NCBI GenBank assembly: GCA_945957135.1
Contig: CAMFLK010000010.1
Span: 1-35,373, forward strand
Direction: 5' to 3'
Length of the DNA stretch: 35,373 nucleotides
Origin: an uncultured Rhodospirillales bacterium
GTDB taxonomy: Bacteria; Pseudomonadota; Alphaproteobacteria; Acetobacterales; Acetobacteraceae
The notes under the pieces were generated by a model that did no database searches, was not told the DNA's origin, and saw only the letters and a program-made list of their open reading frames with translations. Positions 21,702 through 35,251 of the stretch are shown piece by piece. Position numbers and translations under genes: made by a program. The first letter of the stretch is position 1. The number at the start of each line of letters is the position of its first letter.

Positions 21702-23903
21702 CTACCGTTCCAGCCGGAGCGACCCGTGCCCTGCCGCCATCCGCACACACACGAAGCCATCTTCGTGGCTCCACGCGCATTCCGAGACAGCATGCCTGTC
21801 CGAGCCTGGTCGCTGACCATCACGAATGACCGCGGTAGGGGCGGTATCACAGCGGATTTCCAGCGCGATACCGCGGCCGGACCGAGTGATGTTCGGATGG
21901 CCGTGTGGAACACCAACATTCACCTCGATCGCCACTGCCGATTCGGTGCAGGTGATGTGGGTGATGGCGTGGACGCCCTGGCGCCATTGGTTCGTATGGC
22001 CGTCGTCCTCGTACAAGGTGAAGGAGCTCTCGCCGGAGGGATAGATCCGTAGCGTGAGTGCATCGGCCTGGCCGTCTCGTGCATTCCGGTCGGGTGAGCC
22101 CATTGGAATAATGCTGCCGGCGCGCACAAATATCGGCAGCCGATCAAGCGGGGCCGCCACTGTCACGCTGCACGGCCCCTGGTACTCGGCTTCCGAGCAG
22201 AAATCGAACCAACGCCCCGCCGGCAGGTAGACAGGCCAATGCGTGGCTCCCTCGCGCGTCACCGGAGCGACCAGTAGGTCGTCGCCCCACAGGTACTGGG
22301 TGCCGAGGTCCCAGGTCTTCGGATCATCCGGATAGTTCAGCACCAGCGGGCGCATCATCGGCAGCCCCTCGCGATGGGCCTGCCACGCCAGCGTGTAGGT
22401 ATAGGGCATCAGCCGATGGCGCAGCCTGATGATCTCGCGGCAGATCGCCTCGATCTCCGGGCCGTGGCTCCACGGCAGGTGCCGGCGCCAGACATGGCCA
22501 TGGCCGCGAAAGATCGAGGTGAAGGCGGCGAATTGCAGCCAGCGCACGAACAACTCGCCCGTGTCCGGCGCGACGCTGTAGAATCCGCCGGCATCGGTGC
22601 CCCAATGCGGCACGCCGGACATGCCGACGTTCAGCCCCGTGCGGATCTGCGCCTCCAGCGTGGCGAAACTGGTGTTGATGTCGCCCGACCACGGCATGGC
22701 CCCGAAGCGCTGCATGCCCGGACCGCCGGAGCGGCAGAGCAGCCAGAGCCGCGCGTCCGGCCGGTCGCGCGCCTCGCCCTCGGCGAAGGCCTGCTGGCGC
22801 AGCAGGTCGAAGCGGTTGTGCAGGTCGCGCGACGGGCCGGCTCGCAGCGCCACATGCTCGGGCGGCCCCTCCCCGCCATCGAGCCACCAGCCGGCGATGC
22901 CCATCTCCACCAGCGCGCGGTGCTGCCGCCACCACCAGTCCCGCACCTCGGCGCGCGAGAAGTCCAGCATGCGCTGGCCTTCCTTGTAGACGGCCGGGCC
23001 GCCGGGCCTGGCGGGCGGCAGGTCGGGATAGGCCCAGCCGAGCAGGTACCCCTCGCGCTCGGCCTCAGCGAAGAGCGGCGAGTCCGGATGCAGCACCGGA
23101 TATTCATGGGTGATCACCTGCATGCCCTGCGCGCGGATTTCCCGCACCATGGCGTCCGCCTCGGCGAACAGCGTCGGCTCCCAGTCGAGATGCCCGACGC
23201 CGGCGTTCCAGCCCTTCGCCGCGCCGTAGGTGGACAGGAAGATCAGCGCGTCGCAGGGAATGTCGCGGGCGCGGAATTCGGCGGCGAGGGCGCGGACCTC
23301 CTCCGCGCTGTCGAAATGGCGGGACGATTGCAGGTAGCCCAGCGCCCAGCGCGGCGGCATCGTCGCGCGGCCGAGCAGGGCGGCAGCCTCGCCCAGCACC
23401 GCCCGCATGTCGCCGGCGATCAGGTAAATGTCGATCGGCCCGCCGGCGGCGGCGCGGTATTCGATGAAGGCGCCGTCGCCGGCATCGCCGGGCTCCAGCG
23501 TCGCCCGGCGCGCGCAGTCGAAGAACACGCCGTAGCCGCCGGTGGACAGCAGCAGCGGCATGGCGATGTCCGCCCCCTGGCCGCGATTGGCCTGGAAGTT
23601 CCAGAAGCGCCGCACCACCCCCAGCCGGTCGAACTGCGCGCCGCCCTCGCCCAGGCCGTAGAAATGCTGTTCGCGGAAGAACTCGAAGCGCAGCAGCAGG
23701 TCCGGCGTCAGGCACGATTGTTCGAGGCAGAGGCGCAGCGCGGGGCGCCCTTCAGCGTCGTTCAGCACCACCGAACCGGGCGTGGCGACGACGGCCGCCA
23801 TCGTGCCCTGGTCCGGCCAGTCGGTGCGCACGCCGTAGGACGCGCCGCCCTCGCCGCCCAGCCGCACCCGCACCATGCGGCTGGTGCAGGCCGCCAGCGT
23901 CAC
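21702..23903 (-). CDS. Glycoside hydrolase family 31 (alpha-glucosidase/alpha-xylosidase-like), GTG start
   Basis: FREQHFYGLGEGG...PPRWALGYLQSSRHFDSAEEVRALAAEFRARDIPCDALIFLSTY...GWWLDGGEGP...WSGDINTSFATLEAQIRTGLNVGMSGVPHWGTDAGGF...LWGDDLLVAPVTREGATHWPVYLPAGRWFDF. Confidence 0.95.
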   Translation of the reverse strand: MTLAACTSRMVRVRLGGEGGASYGVRTDWPDQGTMAAVVATPGSVVLNDAEGRPALRLCLEQSCLTPDLLLRFEFFREQHFYGLGEGGAQFDRLGVVRRFWNFQANRGQGADIAMPLLLSTGGYGVFFDCARRATLEPGDAGDGAFIEYRAAAGGPIDIYLIAGDMRAVLGEAAALLGRATMPPRWALGYLQSSRHFDSAEEVRALAAEFRARDIPCDALIFLSTYGAAKGWNAGVGHLDWEPTLFAEADAMVREIRAQGMQVITHEYPVLHPDSPLFAEAEREGYLLGWAYPDLPPARPGGPAVYKEGQRMLDFSRAEVRDWWWRQHRALVEMGIAGWWLDGGEGPPEHVALRAGPSRDLHNRFDLLRQQAFAEGEARDRPDARLWLLCRSGGPGMQRFGAMPWSGDINTSFATLEAQIRTGLNVGMSGVPHWGTDAGGFYSVAPDTGELFVRWLQFAAFTSIFRGHGHVWRRHLPWSHGPEIEAICREIIRLRHRLMPYTYTLAWQAHREGLPMMRPLVLNYPDDPKTWDLGTQYLWGDDLLVAPVTREGATHWPVYLPAGRWFDFCSEAEYQGPCSVTVAAPLDRLPIFVRAGSIIPMGSPDRNARDGQADALTLRIYPSGESSFTLYEDDGHTNQWRQGVHAITHITCTESAVAIEVNVGVPHGHPNITRSGRGIALEIRCDTAPTAVIRDGQRPGSDRHAVSECAWSHEDGFVCVRMAAGHGSLRLER

Positions 23904-25317: not shown

Positions 25318-26231
25318 CAGCGGTCCGCCTGCGCGGTCTTGAACAGGTAGCGCAGCAGCGGCGAGCTGACCGCCAGCACGATCACCACGAAGATCCAGGC
25401 GATGGCCGTGGTGCGGCCGATGTCGAAGGACGAGAAGCCGGTCTTGTAGGTGAAGATCGTCATCGTCGTGGTGCGGTCGCCGGGCCCGCCGCCGGTGAGC
25501 AGCCAGATCTTGTCGAAATCGCCCATCGCCGCGATGCAGCGGAAGGCGGCGGCGATCAGCATGTACGGCAGCAGATGCGGCAGCAGGATGAAGCGGAACA
25601 TCTGCCAGGGCGAGGTGCCGTCCACCTTCGCCGCGTCGATCAGGTTCTCGTCGATCGAGTGCAGCCCGGCGAGGATCACCAGCATGAAGAACGGCGTGGT
25701 CTGCCAGACATCCATGACGATCATCGACGGCAGGGCGTTGGTCAGGCTCAGCCAGGCCACCTTGGGCAGGCCGAGGGAGGCGAGGACGTGGTTGAACACG
25801 CCGTCTTCCTGCTCGTAGAGCAGCTTGAAGAAGATGCCGATCACCGAGGGTGTGATCACCATCGGAATGATCATGATGGCGCGGAAGAAGCCGCGCCAGA
25901 AGAAGTCGAGATTCAGCAGCAGGGCGAGGCAGGTGCCAAGGATGAGCCCGCCGGTGATGGAGCTGAGCGCGTAGACGATGGTGACGCGCACCGCCGTCCA
26001 GAATTCCCGGCTGCGCAGCACGTCGGTGTAGTTGTCGAACCCGACGAGGTCGTTCTCGCTGCCGGGCATCACCATCACCCAGCCGGTGAAGCTGGCCTTC
26101 AGCGCGTAGAGCATCGGGCCGAGATAGACGCCGAGCAGCACCAGCACGGCCGGAGCGATGAAGCAGAGCGCGGCGCCGCGCGTGCCGAGGCGATGGCCGC
26201 GTCGCCGGACAGGAAGGGCGGCAGCGCTCAT
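25317..26231 (-). CDS. Carbohydrate ABC transporter permease (MalF type)
   Basis: MSAAALPVRRRGHRLGTRGAALCFIAPAVLVLLGVYLGPMLYALKASFTGW...IDAAKVDGTSPWQMFRFILLPHLLPYMLIA...LLTGGGPGDRTTTMTIFTYKTGF. The 1024-aa ORF in the track is a read-through of this frame. Confidence 0.94.
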   Translation of the reverse strand: MSAAALPVRRRGHRLGTRGAALCFIAPAVLVLLGVYLGPMLYALKASFTGWVMVMPGSENDLVGFDNYTDVLRSREFWTAVRVTIVYALSSITGGLILGTCLALLLNLDFFWRGFFRAIMIIPMVITPSVIGIFFKLLYEQEDGVFNHVLASLGLPKVAWLSLTNALPSMIVMDVWQTTPFFMLVILAGLHSIDENLIDAAKVDGTSPWQMFRFILLPHLLPYMLIAAAFRCIAAMGDFDKIWLLTGGGPGDRTTTMTIFTYKTGFSSFDIGRTTAIAWIFVVIVLAVSSPLLRYLFKTAQADR

Positions 26232-27526
26232 CCGGGCAGGTTGCCGCGTCGCTTCATCAATGCGTAGACCTTGTCCTGCATGTCGCGGCTCGCGTCCTCG
26301 GGCGATTTGGTGCCGGCGCAGGCCGCGTTGGTCTCGTCGGCGATGATGATGTTGACCTGGCCGTTGTCGGGGATGGGCATGTACATCGCCACCGGACCTT
26401 CCATGCTTTGCAGCACGGCCGGCAGCTGGCGGAACTTGGCACTCGCCTCCTTGTCCTTGAATGCGGAGACGCGGCAGGGCTGGCCGGTGATGCGCGCGAC
26501 CCGGGCGGAGATCTCCCGACTGGTCAGCCAGCCCACGAACAGCTTGGCCGCATCGAGGCTTTTCGACGACGCGTTGACCGAGAGCGCCCAGCCGCCCAGC
26601 AGCACCGCCCCCGGCGTCGGCGCCCAGCCGAGATCGTTCGCCACCTGCGAGCGTTGCGGGTCGAGCAGGGTGGAGAAGCCGCCCGGCCACATGAACCCCT
26701 GGGCGGAGGTGCCGTTGGCCACCGCGCTGACCATCTCCGGGAAGTCCCAGGTCAGGTTGCCCGGCGGGCTCACCTTCTGCAGCCGCTCGGCGATGAACCT
26801 GGTCGCCTTCTGCCCGGCCTCGCTGTTGAAGGCGGGGAAGCCCTTGGCGTCGGTGTAGCTGCCGCCCATGGCGTGGAACACGGTGATCCAGGCGCAGGCG
26901 CATTGGATCGCCTTTCCGGCCGGCATGTTGAAGCCGTAGCGCTTCTCGGCCTTCAGCTTCAGCCCGTTGTCGTAAACGCCCTGCCAGTCGGCGGGCGGGC
27001 TGTCGGGGTCGAGCCCGGCCTCGCGATACGCCTTCCTGTTCCAAACCAGGAAGGTCGCGCTGCCGAGCAGCGGAATGGCCATCATCTTGCCGCCGACCTT
27101 GGTGTAGACGTCGAGCGCGCGCGATGGGAAATCGGCGAGGTCCAGCGGCGGGCAGCCCTTCACCTCCTGGTCGATATGGGCGTGGTCGATCAGATACGGG
27201 GCGAGCTGCTGCTTCCACTGGTAGGCGTTCATGTAGATGTCGAACGCATTTGTCTTGGTCGTGGTGTCGAGGATCGATTTCTGCTGCCGGTCGTCGGAAC
27301 TGGCATTGGTGAAGTTCAGCGCGATGCCGGTGGCCTCGCTGAATTCCTTGCTGAAGGCGGCGAGGGCGATGCCCACGGGGTCGTTGGCCCAGAGGATGTT
27401 GAGCGTGGCGCCGGAATAAGTCTTCGGCAGGTTGCGCGTGGCTTCGCTCGGCGATTGCGCGCGGGCGCCGGTGGCGGCGAGCAGGAGGGCCCCGGTGGCC
27501 AGGGCGCGGCGGGTGATGCCGGACAT
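26228..27526 (-). CDS. ABC transporter extracellular solute-binding protein, family 1 (paralog B)
   Basis: MSGITRRALATGALLLAATGARAQSPSEATRNLPKTYSGATLNILWANDPVGIALAAFSKEFSEATGIALNF... Confidence 0.93.
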   Translation of the reverse strand: MSGITRRALATGALLLAATGARAQSPSEATRNLPKTYSGATLNILWANDPVGIALAAFSKEFSEATGIALNFTNASSDDRQQKSILDTTTKTNAFDIYMNAYQWKQQLAPYLIDHAHIDQEVKGCPPLDLADFPSRALDVYTKVGGKMMAIPLLGSATFLVWNRKAYREAGLDPDSPPADWQGVYDNGLKLKAEKRYGFNMPAGKAIQCACAWITVFHAMGGSYTDAKGFPAFNSEAGQKATRFIAERLQKVSPPGNLTWDFPEMVSAVANGTSAQGFMWPGGFSTLLDPQRSQVANDLGWAPTPGAVLLGGWALSVNASSKSLDAAKLFVGWLTSREISARVARITGQPCRVSAFKDKEASAKFRQLPAVLQSMEGPVAMYMPIPDNGQVNIIIADETNAACAGTKSPEDASRDMQDKVYALMKRRGNLPG

Positions 27527-27574
27527 TGCATTTCTCCCGGTATTGCCGTGGCGTGAATCCGCCGCGGGCGTTGT

Positions 27575-28882
27575 TCAGCCTTTCAGGTAGCCGCGGCGGC
27601 GCATGAACGTGGCGACCTTCTCGTTGAGGTCGCCGGCCGCCTGCTCGGGGGTCTTGGTCTTGGCGCAGGCGGCGTTCACCTCGTCGTAGATCATGATGTT
27701 GACCTGCTCGGACTCCTTGATCGGCGCGTAGGTGGCGACCCGGCCGGACATGCCCTTCACCACCGCCGGCATCAGCGGGAACTTCGCCACCACGGCGGGA
27801 TCGTTGAAGGCCGAGATGCGGCACGGCGTGCCGGTGACCAGCGCCGTCTGCTTGGAAATCTCGCGCGAGGTCAGCCAGCCCACGAACAGCTTGGCGGCAT
27901 CGAGGTTGCGGCTGGTCGCGTTGATCGTGACGCCCCAGCCGCCAAGCAGAACCGCCTCCGGCGTGGCCGACCAGCCCACCTCGCCCGCCATGGCCGACTT
28001 GGCCGGGTCGAACAGCGTGGAGAACCCGCCGGTCCACATATAGCCCTGGGCCGCCTGGCCGCTCGCCAGCCCGTTCAGCATCTCCGGGAAGTCCCAGGTC
28101 AGGTTGCCCGGCGGGCTGACCGCGCCGAGCCGATCGACCATGAAGCGGATGGCACGGATGCCCGATTCGGACCCCAGATTCGGCTTGCCCGCGGCATCGA
28201 ACCAGCCGCCGCCGAAGCCGTGGAACAAAGTGATCCACACGCAGGCGGTCTGGATGGACTTGCCCGCCGGCATGTTGAAGCCGAACTGCCTGTCCTTTGT
28301 CACCTTGCGGCCGGTCTCGTAGACCGCGTTCCAGTCGGCCGGCACCGCTTCGGGATCGAGCCCGGCCGCGCGCAGAACCTTCTTGTTCCACACCAGCATG
28401 GACGCGTCACCGATGATCGGCACGGCGATGAATTTCTCGCCCACCCGGGCATAGGCATCCAGCGCGCGGGCGGGATAGTCGTCCCACTCCAGGGGCGGCA
28501 TGCCCTTCACTTCCTGGTCGATGCGGGTGAGGTCGGCCACGTAGGGCGCCACCTCGTCCTTCCACTGATAGGCGGTGAGATACACGTCGTACGCGTTGGT
28601 CTTGGTGGTCAGGTCCAGCACCAGCTTCTGGTAGCGGTCGGCCTGAAGCAGCGGCTGGAATTCCAGCGCGATGCCGGTGGCCGCCGTGAAGGCGTCGCAA
28701 AACTTGGCCAGCGCGAGGTAGCTCGGCGTGTTGCCCCAGGTGATGCGCAGCGTGGCCCCGGCATGGCTGCGCGGAAGCGCGCGGGTGACGTCGGCGGTCG
28801 TGGCCTGCGCCATCACCTCCCGCAAGGGCAAAGCCGCGCTGAGTGCGGCGGCGGTCAGGCTCCGGCGCGTGATGCGTTGCAT
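27575..28882 (-). CDS. ABC transporter extracellular solute-binding protein, family 1 (paralog A)
   Basis: MQRITRRSLTAAALSAALPLREVMAQATTADVTRALPRSHAGATLRITWGNTPSYLALAKFCDAFTAATGIALEF...; start at 28882 chosen because a signal peptide follows. Confidence 0.92.
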   Translation of the reverse strand: MQRITRRSLTAAALSAALPLREVMAQATTADVTRALPRSHAGATLRITWGNTPSYLALAKFCDAFTAATGIALEFQPLLQADRYQKLVLDLTTKTNAYDVYLTAYQWKDEVAPYVADLTRIDQEVKGMPPLEWDDYPARALDAYARVGEKFIAVPIIGDASMLVWNKKVLRAAGLDPEAVPADWNAVYETGRKVTKDRQFGFNMPAGKSIQTACVWITLFHGFGGGWFDAAGKPNLGSESGIRAIRFMVDRLGAVSPPGNLTWDFPEMLNGLASGQAAQGYMWTGGFSTLFDPAKSAMAGEVGWSATPEAVLLGGWGVTINATSRNLDAAKLFVGWLTSREISKQTALVTGTPCRISAFNDPAVVAKFPLMPAVVKGMSGRVATYAPIKESEQVNIMIYDEVNAACAKTKTPEQAAGDLNEKVATFMRRRGYLKG

Positions 28883-28981
28883 CGTTCCTCTCCCATTTTT
28901 GCAGCCATGTTCTTGGCGGCCAGCTTCTTGATGGTGACTGAAGCAGCGAGGCAGGAGGCGCTCAATCGCGGCCGGCATGTG

Positions 28982-30799
28982 TTACGGGTAATTCCGGGTA
29001 ATCGGCGTCCGGTCGGTTGAGGCGACCAGCAGCCCCAGCGCCACCATCTTGTTGTACAGCGTCTTGCGCGACACGCCGAGGAAGCGCGCCGTCTCCGCCC
29101 GCCGGAACCGGTTGCGGCGCAGGCCGTCGAGAATCCATTCCCGCTCGCTTGCGAACCTGCCGCGCTGGTCGGGCGCCGCGTCGCGCTTCAGCGGCGGCAG
29201 GTGCGCGGCCAGGATCGTGCCATCGGTCGCCTGCAGCACCGCCCGCTGCAGCACGCCTGCCAGTTCGCGCCCGTTCCCCGGCCAATCATGCGCGAGCAAT
29301 GTGCGATAGGCCGCGGCATCGAGCTCCACTGGCCGCCCCCCGGTGCCCATGCCCTCCAGTAGGCGCTGGATGATCTGCGGCAGGTCGTCGCTGCGCGCGC
29401 GCAGCGGCGGCAGACGGATCGGAATCTCGCCCATCAACTCCAGCAATCGGCCGTCGAACCGCGCGGGCTCCAGCGCCGGGTCGAACCGGGTGATACCGAT
29501 CAGTCGCGCGTCCAGCTTCAAGTATTCCGCCCCGCCATGCCGCCGGAACCCCCCGCTCTCGATCGCCGCGCAGAGCAGCCGCTGGGTGCCGCGGTCGAGC
29601 TCGCCCAGATCGTCCAGCACCAGGGTGGAGCCGCTGGCCAGTTCAAGCCAGCCGATCCGCCGCCGCCCCACGCCGGGCGCCACGCCGGGCTCGGCGCCGA
29701 ACAATTCCACGTTCATCCGGTCCTGCCCGGCGGCGCAGTTGAGCCAGGTCAGCCGCCGCGACTTCCGTGCGCCCCCGGCGTGCAGCAACCGGGCGAGGTC
29801 GCGCCGCCCGGTTCCCGCCTCGCCCATGATCAACACTGGCAGCTCGGTCGCCAGCGCCTGCTCATAGGCCGCCCGCGCCCGTACCGTCGCGGCGGCGGCG
29901 CCGGTGACGCTGACGGGTGCCAGCCGAGGGGCGAGCTGCCGCTCCAGCCGCGTCACCCGCCGGCGCAGCGCCCCCATGGTCTTGAACGCGGCTGTCACCA
30001 GTTCGATCGCCGTTTCCAGCGGCACCCGGTCGATGGTGGAGCCGCCGACATAGCCATCGGCCTGCGCGGCGCGGCACACCTCGTCCATCTGCTCCGGCCG
30101 CACGATGGGCCCACCCTCGACGACGCAGATCGTGCTCGGCGCGGCCTTGCGCACGGCGCGGATCATGCGCGCGGCAACGTCGGACGCCTCCTCGATGCTG
30201 ACCTTGGTGGCGACGCCGAGCGCGCCGCCGGTATTCCAGCCGAGATCGACATTGACGATGTCCACGCCGGCCGCCGCCATCATCTGCGCCTCCTCGCGGG
30301 TGTGGACATAGGCGAGGGTGGCGAGCCCCCGCGCCCGGGCCGCCCGCAGCAGCGCGACCTCACGCGCCATGCCATGGCCGGTCGCCTCCAGCCAGCGGCG
30401 GAACTGCCCGTCGATCAGCGCCACGGTGGGGAAATTGGTCACGCCCTCGAAACCGGCCGTGCGCACGCCGTCGAGCGCCTCCTCGAAATCCAGCCGCGGA
30501 TCGAAAGCAGCCATGCCGACCAACACAGGCAGTCGGGTACGCGGCCGGATCTCCTCCCGCGCGAAATCGGCGACGAAACGGTTGGTGTCACGCAGCGCCA
30601 GCAGCGAGGCCACCGACGGCGCGCCCATGCTGCGCAGCCGCCCGGCGTTCAGCGCCAGCAGGAAATCGGCCCCCCCGCGCGTGGCCGCCTGCGCCGCCAT
30701 GCCAGTGCCGATCGCCGCCCCGACCAGGAACGCGCCCTGCCGCGTCTGCGCCTCCCGCAGCGCGGCACGCATGCGCTCGGCGGGGGTGGCCGGAAGCAT
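28982..30799 (-). CDS. Fusion: PF09370-like TIM barrel (PEP-hydrolase/TIM-barrel signal transduction family) + AAA+ (sigma54-interaction-like) + Fis-type HTH
   Basis: N-terminus RQGAFLVGAAIGTGMAAQAATRGGADFLLALNAGRLRSMGAPSVASLLALRDTNRFV...GFEGVTNFPTVALIDGQFRRWLEATGHGMAREVALLRAAR; middle LIMGEAGTGRRDLARLLHAGG...STLVLDDLGELDRGTQRLL...PLRARSDDLPQIIQRLL; C-terminus EREWILDGLRRNRFRRAETARFLGVSRKTLYNKMVALGLL. Confidence 0.9.
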   Translation of the reverse strand: MLPATPAERMRAALREAQTRQGAFLVGAAIGTGMAAQAATRGGADFLLALNAGRLRSMGAPSVASLLALRDTNRFVADFAREEIRPRTRLPVLVGMAAFDPRLDFEEALDGVRTAGFEGVTNFPTVALIDGQFRRWLEATGHGMAREVALLRAARARGLATLAYVHTREEAQMMAAAGVDIVNVDLGWNTGGALGVATKVSIEEASDVAARMIRAVRKAAPSTICVVEGGPIVRPEQMDEVCRAAQADGYVGGSTIDRVPLETAIELVTAAFKTMGALRRRVTRLERQLAPRLAPVSVTGAAAATVRARAAYEQALATELPVLIMGEAGTGRRDLARLLHAGGARKSRRLTWLNCAAGQDRMNVELFGAEPGVAPGVGRRRIGWLELASGSTLVLDDLGELDRGTQRLLCAAIESGGFRRHGGAEYLKLDARLIGITRFDPALEPARFDGRLLELMGEIPIRLPPLRARSDDLPQIIQRLLEGMGTGGRPVELDAAAYRTLLAHDWPGNGRELAGVLQRAVLQATDGTILAAHLPPLKRDAAPDQRGRFASEREWILDGLRRNRFRRAETARFLGVSRKTLYNKMVALGLLVASTDRTPITRNYP

Positions 30800-30802
30800 C
30801 GG

Positions 30803-31873
30803 CTATCCGAAACTGTGGATGTAGTCCTGCAGCTTCACCAGCGCGTTGGTCCGCGCCGAATGGATCGACCCGAATATCAACGCCGAGGCCTGCACATTGG
30901 CCTCCACATGCGTCTCCATCTCGGCCCCTCCCGTGCGCCACTCGGCGAATTTCTGGATCAGCCAATGGTTGATCCATTTCGGCTGCACCAGCAGCGGCAC
31001 CTTCTGGCCCGTGCCCTCGCGATGCTTCTGGCGCGGCAGGTCCTGGCGCGTGAACACCTCGATCTCGCGATGGTTCAGGATCGCAGTTCCGAACTCGCAA
31101 TCGACACGGATGTATTCCTGATACCAGTCGTTGAGCCCGACCGCCGTGCTGCTCGACCCCTCGTAGATCGCGCGCACGCCGTTATCGAACACCATGGTCA
31201 CCACGCCATCGGTATCTCCGGCATATTCAGCCCAGTCTGGCTTCCACGTGGAGGCGAACAGCGTCTCGCAATGGCCGCCGGCCAGATCGGCGACGATGTC
31301 GAGATGATGCACCGCCCCCTCGATGATCATCGGGTCCTGCATGGTGTGGCGGAACAGCGCACCCCAGGCCATGTGCTGCCGCATGTCCGACTGGTAGCGG
31401 CAGGAGATGTTGTTGACCCGGCCGAGCTTGCCGGAGCGGACAATGCGCCGCAGCGTCGTCTTGTCCTGGTCGAAGCGATGGCTCATCGTCACCGCCATCT
31501 TGCGGCCCGCCGCCTTGATCTTTCGCGCGATGCGCACCGACGCTTCCATCGTGTCGGCGATCGGCTTCTCGCTCAGCACGTCCACGCCATGGGCGATCGC
31601 CACGTCCACCACCGCCTCGTGAAAGTTCGGCGGTACCACCACGGTGCAGAAATCGGCCGCCACCTCGCTGAACGCCTTGTTCGCGTCGGTGTAGCAGGCG
31701 CTCTCCTTCACCCCGAGGATCGAGCGCCCGTATTCCAGCGCCTTCGGGTCCACGTCCACCAGCGCCACGATCTCGATCGTGCCGTCATCGACATTGGTCT
31801 TGAGGAACTCGCGGCACCAGCGCTTGCCGAAGCTGCCGATGCCGACATGGATCACCCGTTGTGGCCTGGCCAT
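30803..31873 (-). CDS. Gfo/Idh/MocA family oxidoreductase
   Basis: [49 protein letters not shown]...GVDVLSEKPIADTMEASVRIARKIKAAGRKMAVTMSHRFD. Confidence 0.94.
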   Translation of the reverse strand: MARPQRVIHVGIGSFGKRWCREFLKTNVDDGTIEIVALVDVDPKALEYGRSILGVKESACYTDANKAFSEVAADFCTVVVPPNFHEAVVDVAIAHGVDVLSEKPIADTMEASVRIARKIKAAGRKMAVTMSHRFDQDKTTLRRIVRSGKLGRVNNISCRYQSDMRQHMAWGALFRHTMQDPMIIEGAVHHLDIVADLAGGHCETLFASTWKPDWAEYAGDTDGVVTMVFDNGVRAIYEGSSSTAVGLNDWYQEYIRVDCEFGTAILNHREIEVFTRQDLPRQKHREGTGQKVPLLVQPKWINHWLIQKFAEWRTGGAEMETHVEANVQASALIFGSIHSARTNALVKLQDYIHSFG

Positions 31874-32502
31874 CAGACGCGCTCCGGTTGCGGCTGCGCG
31901 ACGCCGTGCGTGTGATTCCACAAATGGCCGGTGCGCTTGCGGCCCTGCAACGTCGTCTCGAAGAACACCGCCTTCACGTCCTCCTCCACCCAGGGGAAGT
32001 CGTGCGGATGGCCCATGCCGATGCACAGGCAGTCGCCGGGGCCCATGGCCTCCTGCGTGTCGTCCACCACCACCTGTCCCTTGCCCTCCAGCAGGATCCA
32101 GAACTCGTCGCAATCGTGATAGTGGCGGTCGATGCTGGTGTTCTTGCGATAGGTCACCGCATCGCCCTTGTTCGGCGCGTCGGACGGCTTCACCCGAAAG
32201 ATGCCGCAGCCGGCGATGTCGTCGCCCCAATGGCCGGACAGGCGCACGAATTGCGACGCGTCGGCATGGCCGGTCATTGTCCATTCGCCGTCGGACGGGT
32301 CGAGGTCGATGAACTGGCCCTCCTTGAGCAGCAGCGTGCGGGCGCCGCGACGAAGCTGGCAGGTGCCGAGCGTGCCGATCAGCCGTTCGGTCCGCGTGCC
32401 GGGCCGGCGCGCAACGGTCTCGTCCCGCGCGAGGGGGACGATCTCGAAGCTTTCCAGCTCGCTCCATGCCGGCGGTTTCGTGGTGCTGCGGAAGATCGTC
32501 AT
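31873..32502 (-). CDS. Cupin domain-containing protein
   Basis: [64 protein letters not shown]: cupin metal-binding motifs; start at 32502, stop overlaps next start. Confidence 0.9.
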
Positions 32503-33356
32503 GCGTTTGCCTCCTTGCGCGGCAGCGTTCGTGTCAGGGCGCGGAATTCGCGCGTCCGCGCCGTCAGCGCCGTCTCCACGGGCAGCCGCTCCATGGAACT
32601 CGCGCCGTAGAACCCGTCGCAGTGGCGGCAGTTGTCGAGAATGTACTGCGCATCCGCGGGCACCGCGATCGGCCCCCCATGGCACAGCACGATCAGGTCC
32701 GGCCGCACCCGCCTTGCCGCCGCCGCCCAGGCATCGATCAGGGCCGGGCACTGCTCCAGCCGCAGCGCCGTCTCCGCCCCGATGCTGCCACCGGTGGTCA
32801 GGCCCATATGGGCGATAATGATGTCGGCCCCCGCCTCCGCCATCGCCACGGCGTCCGCCTCGGAGAACACATAGGGCGTGGTCAGCAGGTCGAGCGCCCG
32901 GGCGGTGCGGATCATCTCCACCTCCAGCGCGTAGCCCATGCCGGTTTCTTCCAGATTCTGCCGGAAGATGCCGTCGATCAGGCCCACGGTGGGGAAGTTC
33001 TGGATGCCGGCGATTCCCATGGCCTTCAACGTGCCCAGGAAGTGCTCGGCCAGCATGAACGGGTCCGTGCCGTTCACCCCTGCGATCACCGGGGTGCGCC
33101 TCACCAGCGGCAGCACCTCGCGCGCCATGTCCAGCACGATCTCGTTGGCGTTGCCGTAGGCCAGCAGCCCGGCCAGCGAGCCTCGGCCGGCCATGCGGTA
33201 ACGGCCGGAATTGTAGAGGATGATGAGGTCGATCCCCCCCTCTTCCTCGCACTTCGCCGAGAGCCCGATACCCGCGCCGCCGCCGATAATCGGCTGGCCC
33301 TGCCGGACCATGTCGTGAAACCGGCGCAGCAGCGCCTTTCGTTCGAAGCGCGGCAT
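32499..33356 (-). CDS. Phosphoenolpyruvate hydrolase family protein (PF09370-like TIM barrel)
   Basis: [74 protein letters not shown]...[40 protein letters not shown]...[22 protein letters not shown]. Confidence 0.93.
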
Positions 33357-33368
33357 GACCGGGTCTCC

Positions 33369-34562
33369 TCAGGCAATCTCGCGATAGGCGGCAACCAGCG
33401 CATCGGCGAAGGCCGGGGCGTTGATGTCGCAAGGAAGGCGGACGACACGGCGGCGGTCGGTTGGTATCACCTGGGCGCGCAGGGTCTCGAACAGGGCGGC
33501 ATCGGCGGCCGGGTCGTGAAATGGCTTGCCGGGCATGTCGATGGCAGAGATGCCGCCCTCGGGGATCAGCAGCCGTACCGGCCCTTCCATGCGGTTCAGT
33601 TTGGCCGCCATGAACGCCGCCATGTGGCGGCATTCCTCCGCCGTGGTACGCATCAGCGTCACCTGCGGATTGTGCGGATACAGCACCCGGCCGCTGTATT
33701 TCTCCGGCACCGTCGTCATCGGGCCGAAATTCACCATATCGAGCGCGCCGAGTGAGACGACATAGGGGACGCGCGTGGCGATCACCGCGTCGAACCGGGT
33801 CTCGTCGGCGGGGAATATCCCGCCCATGAACATGTCGCACAGCTCGGTCGTCGTCGCATCGATCGCGCCCTGCATCAGGCCGGACGCGATCAGCTTCTCC
33901 ATCGCCCGGCCGCCGGTGCCCACGGCATGGAACACCAGGCAGTCATGCGTGCCCTCCATCTGCGCCGCCACGCGCTGCACGCAGGTCGTGGTGACGCCGA
34001 ACATGGTCAGGCCCAGCGCCGGCCGCGACGACACCTCTTCCGTCGCGGCAAACCGGATCATCCCCGCGAGCGCATGGGCCGCATTGCCCAGGATGCGGCG
34101 GGAAATCCGGTTCAACCCCTGCACGTCGGTGATCGACGGCATCATCACGATGTCCGAGGCGCCGACATAGGCCGCGACATTCCCGGCCGCGACGGTGGAG
34201 ACCAGCAGCTTCGGCACCCCCACCGGCAGTGCCCGCATGCCCGGCGCCACAAGCGCCGTGCCCCCGCTACCGCCAGCCCCGATCACGCCGCCAATGTCGC
34301 CTCGCGTGACGATGAACCGCTCGAAAGCCGCCACCATGCCCGCGATCGCAATTCCGCGATCCTCCAGCCCCAATACCGCGCCCATACCCTGCGGATGGTG
34401 CCTCGCTACCTCGGCTGCCGGCACGTCCACGATGCCTGCATGGGCCCGCGTCGACAGATCCACCGTGCACACCGGCAGGCCGGTCGCGCGCAAGGCGGAG
34501 GCCAGGAAGCCCAGTTCGGGGCCCTTGGTGTCGAACGTTCCACAAATATATGCCCTGGACAT
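33369..34562 (-). CDS. Tm-1-like ATP-binding domain protein (UPF0261)
   Basis: MSRAYICGTFDTKGPELGFLASALRATGLPVCTVDLSTR...GVIGAGGSGGTALVAPGMRALPVGVPKLLVSTVAAGNVAAYVGASDIVMMPSITDVQGLNRISRRILGNAAHALAGM. Confidence 0.94.
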   Translation of the reverse strand: MSRAYICGTFDTKGPELGFLASALRATGLPVCTVDLSTRAHAGIVDVPAAEVARHHPQGMGAVLGLEDRGIAIAGMVAAFERFIVTRGDIGGVIGAGGSGGTALVAPGMRALPVGVPKLLVSTVAAGNVAAYVGASDIVMMPSITDVQGLNRISRRILGNAAHALAGMIRFAATEEVSSRPALGLTMFGVTTTCVQRVAAQMEGTHDCLVFHAVGTGGRAMEKLIASGLMQGAIDATTTELCDMFMGGIFPADETRFDAVIATRVPYVVSLGALDMVNFGPMTTVPEKYSGRVLYPHNPQVTLMRTTAEECRHMAAFMAAKLNRMEGPVRLLIPEGGISAIDMPGKPFHDPAADAALFETLRAQVIPTDRRRVVRLPCDINAPAFADALVAAYREIA

Positions 34563-34633
34563 ACTTCCCGGTTCTGCTGGCCAGTTTCCCGCCACCACGC
34601 TAACAGGGCAGCCGTTGGGGGAAAGGTGGCAGC

Positions 34634-35251
34634 GTGACGCAATTGGGTAAAACTGGGCAACCTCACATCCGCCTCGCGCATAGCCTGCCATCCGGGCGCA
34701 CCGCGGGGGATGACCATGTGGTGCTCTGCCCGTTCCTCGGCGGCCCCGATCCCGCCGCCCTGTTCTGGCTCGGCGCCCTCGCCTGGCAGGACGCCAACGC
34801 CCGGCTGCTGGCAGCCTTGCGTGACGCCACGCCTCCGCGTTGCATTGTCTATGCCGGAGTCTTCGCCGTTGACCCGTTCCGCCGCGAGGAGGACATCTTC
34901 GCCGCCCTCACCGCCGCCGGCATTCAGGGCGTTGTGAACCTGCCGAGTGTCGATTTCATGGATGGCGAACTCGCCGCAATCCTTCGCAGCTTCGATCTCG
35001 GTATCCAGCGCGAAATCGAATTCCTTCGCCGCGCCCGCGCCGCCGGCCTGCGCATCGCCGGCTGCGCCGCCCATTCCGACGCCGCCGACGCCATGATCGA
35101 GGCCGGCGCCGAACTGATCATTGCCCATGCGGGCCCACCGCTCCCCGGCCGTCCCGACCCAGGCCAGGCCGCCGCTGTCCGCTTGCGCCGGCGCCATACG
35201 GCCGGGCCTGCGATCATCAGCGCGCGAGAACTGCTGGCGACACTGGGTTAG
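34634..35251 (+). CDS. Short divergent PF09370-like TIM-barrel paralog (205 aa), GTG start
   Basis: CIVYAGVFAVDPFRREEDIFAALTAAGIQGVVNLPSVDFMDGELAAILRSFDLGIQREIEFLRRARAAGLRIAGCAAHSDAADAMIEAGAELIIAHAG aligns by eye with [11 protein letters not shown]...[16 protein letters not shown]...[41 protein letters not shown] of 32499-33356. Confidence 0.75.
   Translation: MTQLGKTGQPHIRLAHSLPSGRTAGDDHVVLCPFLGGPDPAALFWLGALAWQDANARLLAALRDATPPRCIVYAGVFAVDPFRREEDIFAALTAAGIQGVVNLPSVDFMDGELAAILRSFDLGIQREIEFLRRARAAGLRIAGCAAHSDAADAMIEAGAELIIAHAGPPLPGRPDPGQAAAVRLRRRHTAGPAIISARELLATLG

Follow-up and report, generated by a model that had tools for sequence, protein, structure and literature searches.

Could a regulator built as a bacterial enhancer-binding protein (bEBP) give up sigma54 and go on working as an activator of sigma70-type promoters? 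This question is raised by one gene in the window, that is, the whole stretch of 35,373 nucleotides analysed here. The mechanisms of bEBPs and of sigma70 activators are distinct, and the conversion of one into the other is documented in few cases. NtrC of R. capsulatus, NtrC of Caulobacter and VpsR of Vibrio cholerae are bEBPs without GAFTGA that act at sigma70 promoters, while ATP binding (R. capsulatus NtrC) or the Walker motifs (Caulobacter NtrC) still matter (PMC10274813). GAFTGA-less bEBPs of sigma70 type are already known; what is new here is the family of barrel proteins, the operator of this family and the record of intact and decayed states in pairs. No functional study of any of these three was found in the literature, which is a weak negative, since subscription journals were thinly covered.

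The gene in question (28982..30799; ORF call and Pfam; this and all other features of the window named here lie on the minus strand, except the gene SHORT) encodes a protein of 605 aa with a PF09370 barrel, a degenerate NtrC-type AAA+ domain and a Fis-type helix-turn-helix (HTH). The sensor barrel (aa 17-274; 29978..30751), which the sequence-only reading had called PF09370-like, is a full PF09370 domain, matching profile positions 8-266 of 267 with 272.5 bits. The AAA+ domain (aa 300-440; 29480..29902) is recognized by Pfam as Sigma54_activat (PF00158, 88.6 bits), which is the fold of a bEBP, and AAA_lid_14 was found at aa 467-545. The Fis-type HTH, earlier described as intact, is indeed retained (HTH_8 in Pfam, aa 552-585; 29045..29146) with the recognition helix SRKTLYNKM. 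Among solved structures, the best relative of the barrel is Mll9387 (PDB 2p10), and those of the remainder are NifA, ZraR and FleQ-type proteins; an AlphaFold2 model based on a two-sequence alignment was unusable (pLDDT 36.5). The opinion that the fusion of a barrel with an NtrC-like protein was already known fits the former name of PF09370, the TIM-barrel signal transduction domain, which reflects a suspected signalling role (PMC5028733).

The motor of this protein is broken at several points. As had been read from the sequence, Walker A is GEAGTGRR with Lys replaced by Arg (aa 326-333; 29801..29824), PGVAPGV stands in place of GAFTGA (GVAPGV at aa 372-377; 29669..29686), and Walker B reads LVLDD, with Asp-Asp instead of Asp-Glu. 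In addition, both arginine fingers (R162 and R168 in PspF), on which that reading was silent, are gone, being D449 and L455 within the segment FDGRLLELM, which is FREDLYYRL in the intact relatives. The sensor-II motif WPGNxREL is retained. The alignment that had been proposed as a check for a functional GAFTGA or Walker A revealed neither. A sequencing error is unlikely, since a Roseomonas homologue of 64% identity (L004) has the same Lys-to-Arg change in Walker A (GEEGTGRRD) together with an altered loop, GALPGI.

Then, is the broken motor a peculiarity of one genome? Homologues were searched for in the same family, class and phylum, in a second order and on plasmids, and 55 loci with full-length proteins, including the window and leaving out the near-duplicate L066, were surveyed. 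The motor is intact in six (L067 and L137-L141), half intact in one (L079) and degraded in 48, among them the window, whose protein is 44% identical to that of L067. The lesions vary in type, with substitution in the window clade and deletions in other clades. In the tree of the AAA+ domain, the intact barrel proteins are placed beside canonical NtrC-type proteins (99/99) and apart from the degraded ones. Many independent losses of the motor are not supported by this single split, although the lesions do differ by clade. One switch followed by decay is the simplest history, but it is uncertain because long branches may group the decayed sequences. The loss of RpoN as the cause of the switch was rejected, since RpoN is present in all of the 19 genomes tested and the sigma54 factor has therefore not been lost. 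As a separate case, L079 has a half-intact motor (GTGKS, LEE and FQRDLYYRL, with the loop altered), and its locus lacks both a good -24/-12 box and the direct repeat described below; it is possibly an intermediate or an independent case.

The promoters differ in the same way as the motors. A -24/-12 box scoring 19.0-19.5 of a maximum of 19.5 occurs in the region of SHORT and the operon in 6/6 intact loci, while no box of at least 19 was found in any of the 48 degraded loci (957 kb scanned). The contrast has a Fisher value of 3.9e-8, without correction for phylogeny, but it probably reflects a single transition, so that 6/6 versus 0/48 should not be read as 54 independent events. Within the window no box reaches 19 of 19.5, and the best-scoring one, at 29207 with 18.0, is within the regulator gene itself. 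The check suggested earlier for -24/-12 elements upstream of 34562 and 28882 likewise found none, and revealed instead a direct-repeat operator with a -35-like spacing. Both the lost motor residues and the missing boxes support the earlier expectation that the protein probably does not activate sigma54. A protein that still activates sigma54, its motifs being just unusual, is thus extremely improbable, although RpoN occurs in every genome tested and PGAP names degraded homologues (for example, L052, L053 and L059) "sigma-54-dependent Fis family transcriptional regulator" in public records; the protein has lost GAFTGA, the Walker A Lys and both arginine fingers, and the degraded loci have no -24/-12 box of the quality seen in intact loci. 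The sigma54 part of that annotation is probably wrong. It should be noted that in three degraded loci, L142 (8280-8340, minus strand), L143 and L144, CTTCTGGCACGGATCTTCC comes after the repeat. It looks like a -24/-12 element in which -24 is intact and -12 mutated, and it is possibly a fossil sigma54 promoter; these loci are close relatives, so CTTCTGGCACGGATCTTCC counts as a single event.

The degraded loci share another element. A tandem direct repeat, TTACCCA-N3-TTACCCA, with a period of 10 bp, is found in 47/48 of them, L070 being the one without a clear repeat. In the window it occurs twice, as TTGCCCA-GTT-TTACCCA upstream of the UPF0261 operon (operator 1; 34644..34660) and as TTACCCG-GAA-TTACCCG upstream of the ABC transporter (operator 2; 28985..29001). 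Among half-site pairs scoring at least 13/14, the direct orientation with a gap of exactly 3 accounts for 42, and every other arrangement is represented by single cases. Repeats of at least 12/14 were observed 64 times against 0.7 expected from first-order Markov shuffles, in a count that takes in L067 and L079 (none in either) and leaves out L137-L150. The shuffles were used since TTACCCATT looks similar when read backwards, which inflates the reversed-sequence control across loci. Six loci added later and scored with the unchanged motif were all positive. Genome-wide counts were obtained by pattern searches: the degenerate pattern TKNCCCRNNNTTACCCR has exactly two matches in the 4.4-Mb genome of the window, both in the window, and none in the reversed control, which measures rarity and not independent discovery, since the pattern was fitted to these two sites. 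In a set of 42 genomes, the sites that match with one mismatch or none lie mostly in regulator loci, with three scattered singles in the genomes without the regulator. In the intact loci the same TTACCCA half-site is arranged in inverted tandem arrays, which lie at about -49 to -108 relative to the -24 box, the array of L067 being weaker.

Does the repeat belong to the fused regulator? The binding of one to the other is predicted from sequence, and GntR regulators are encoded in some loci, so the repeat could serve another protein while the fused one works elsewhere or is dying. However, the regulator is the common factor of the loci, no repeat of at least 12/14 was found in 20 PF09370 loci without it (1.5-kb flanks included), and the half-site recurs in the intact relatives, there in an inverted array. 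A dying gene, moreover, does not suit the dN/dS values, which are 0.00-0.11 for the HTH and 0.10-0.35 for the AAA+ domain, up to about twice that of the barrel, with synonymous sites close to saturation in some clades. The AAA+ domain is under relaxed purifying selection, and we regard this alternative as very unlikely.

The repeat also stands at a fixed distance from promoter-like boxes. TTG starts at +36 from it in 17/52 non-redundant sites against 0.65 expected (P ~9e-19), and TAG at +58 in 7/52 (P ~2e-8), both values taking the sites as independent and uncorrected for the positions scanned; TTG at +35 to +37 is found in 28/52. In degraded loci the distance from the end of the repeat to the TTG box is most often 19 bp, and 12/48 have no TTG at the expected place. 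At operator 1, the -35-like TTTCCC (34619..34624) occupies the conserved +36 offset and is followed after a 16-bp spacer by a -10-like TTAGCG (34597..34602); for operator 2, the -35-like TTGAGC (28960..28965) lies at +36. Overall, the -10 element is a weak one. The repeats of the intact loci have no TTG at +35 to +37. If the TTG is taken as the -35 box, the repeat extends over about -72 to -56, which is class-I-like. The boxes of -35/-10 type, fixed in their spacing across homologous loci, and the operator with such spacing at both of the promoters that had been named, would suit the sigma70-type mode proposed earlier. That proposal also had an ATP-independent mode as an alternative, and the barrel as a possible sensor of a small metabolite.

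What would be controlled from these sites? The apparent operon facing operator 1 consists of a UPF0261 (Tm-1-like) gene (33369..34562), an enzyme-type PF09370 barrel related to Mll9387 (32499..33356), a cupin protein (31873..32502) and a Gfo/Idh/MocA oxidoreductase (30803..31885; Pfam), the starts of the last two being approximate, with the regulator as its last gene. The sugar ABC transporter comes after the regulator gene, its solute-binding protein (27575..28882; Pfam) lying downstream of operator 2. The third, shortened PF09370 paralogue, SHORT (34634..35251, plus strand), is divergent from operator 1; its true start is probably to the right of 34660. Such a paralogue is conserved close to almost all regulator loci; as a rule it diverges, at the operator, from the target operon, and it may be a co-sensor or an anti-activator. 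Since the operator is also near the start of SHORT, the regulator may at least repress SHORT. A repressor of the whole operon, released by its ligand, is nevertheless unlikely: the operator precedes the -35-like box by a constant distance, which suits activators, and the regulator is encoded in the very operon that the operator faces. Under a simple coordinate rule, 41/48 degraded loci have the repeat directed away from SHORT.

As for the signal, 35 of the 69 columns that are near-invariant in enzyme barrels are kept in at least 80% of the sensors, mostly as Gly, Pro, Asn or Arg. The sensors keep the Gly/Pro/Asn pocket motifs of the enzyme and swap several of its polar invariants, namely H230 to E, H187 to N (D in the window), Y52 to L, T191 to N and E260 to D. 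The sensor barrel is probably a ligand-binding, non-catalytic relative of the enzyme in its own operon. Mll9387 and plant Tm-1 belong to the same barrel family, and here UPF0261 adjoins in the operon; unlike them, the barrel of the regulator is fused to a regulator and has lost several enzyme-invariant residues.

With motif loss, motif distribution, spacing, synteny and selection as its basis, we consider it likely that the protein is a metabolite-responsive, class-I-like, autoregulated activator of sigma70-type promoters, descended from a sigma54 enhancer-binding protein. Its barrel would bind a pathway metabolite, and its Fis HTHs would bind two head-to-tail TTACCCA half-sites, one helical turn apart, in a putative operator derived by footprinting. 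The complex at about -72 to -56 would recruit the sigma70 holoenzyme from a class-I-like position, as the fixed spacing to the -35-like TTG suggests. It would thereby turn on the sugar ABC transporter and the UPF0261-PF09370-cupin-Gfo/Idh-regulator operon and, because the latter contains its gene, itself. The AAA+ domain would no longer power open-complex formation and is probably an oligomerisation and signal-relay scaffold under relaxed purifying selection. A more specific history, which may equally well prove right or wrong, is that the barrel-regulator clade left sigma54 for sigma70 once, protein and promoters together, the inverted tandem UAS with its -24/-12 promoter giving way to one head-to-tail repeat that faces a -35 box, with the dead AAA+ domain retained as the head-to-tail scaffold that sets the operator geometry.

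Like R. capsulatus NtrC, Caulobacter NtrC and VpsR, the regulator has lost the sigma54 loop, has kept the AAA+ fold and the Fis HTH, and would act at sigma70-type promoters. However, it carries a TIM barrel in place of a receiver-type sensor, the tandem TTACCCA operator is specific to the barrel family, and its Walker A Lys and arginine fingers are all missing, whereas ATP binding or the Walker motifs still matter in the two NtrC proteins. The intact barrel-bEBPs share its barrel, HTH, half-site and nearby UPF0261 and SHORT genes, and differ in having an intact motor, a -24/-12 promoter and inverted tandem arrays. Head-to-tail direct repeats about one turn apart near the -35 box are also the operators of PhoB/OmpR-type activators, whose fold and sensor are unrelated; in the present case 19 bp lie between the repeat and the -35-like box downstream of it. 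The family would offer a natural before-and-after record of a gene switch changing its mechanism, and since relatives keep both states, with matched promoters and related operons, the switch is testable by chimeras.

The gene arrangement recurs on pNGR234a and pMLa, and a rearranged version on plasmids of Bosea, Terrarubrum, Azospirillum and Qingshengfaniella. The uncharacterised UPF0261/PF09370 pathway, found on symbiosis plasmids, gains a candidate operator and regulon. For rhizobia, y4pA has been listed as a sigma-54 factor copy (PMC9069715), and the widespread sigma-54-dependent naming of y4pA-type genes is called into question. We also found a tandem pair of solute-binding proteins in the window (26228-28978), 57% identical and the product of a duplication. 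Beside the sugar transporter lies a GH31 glycoside hydrolase (21702-23903), a hint that the substrate may be a glycoside.
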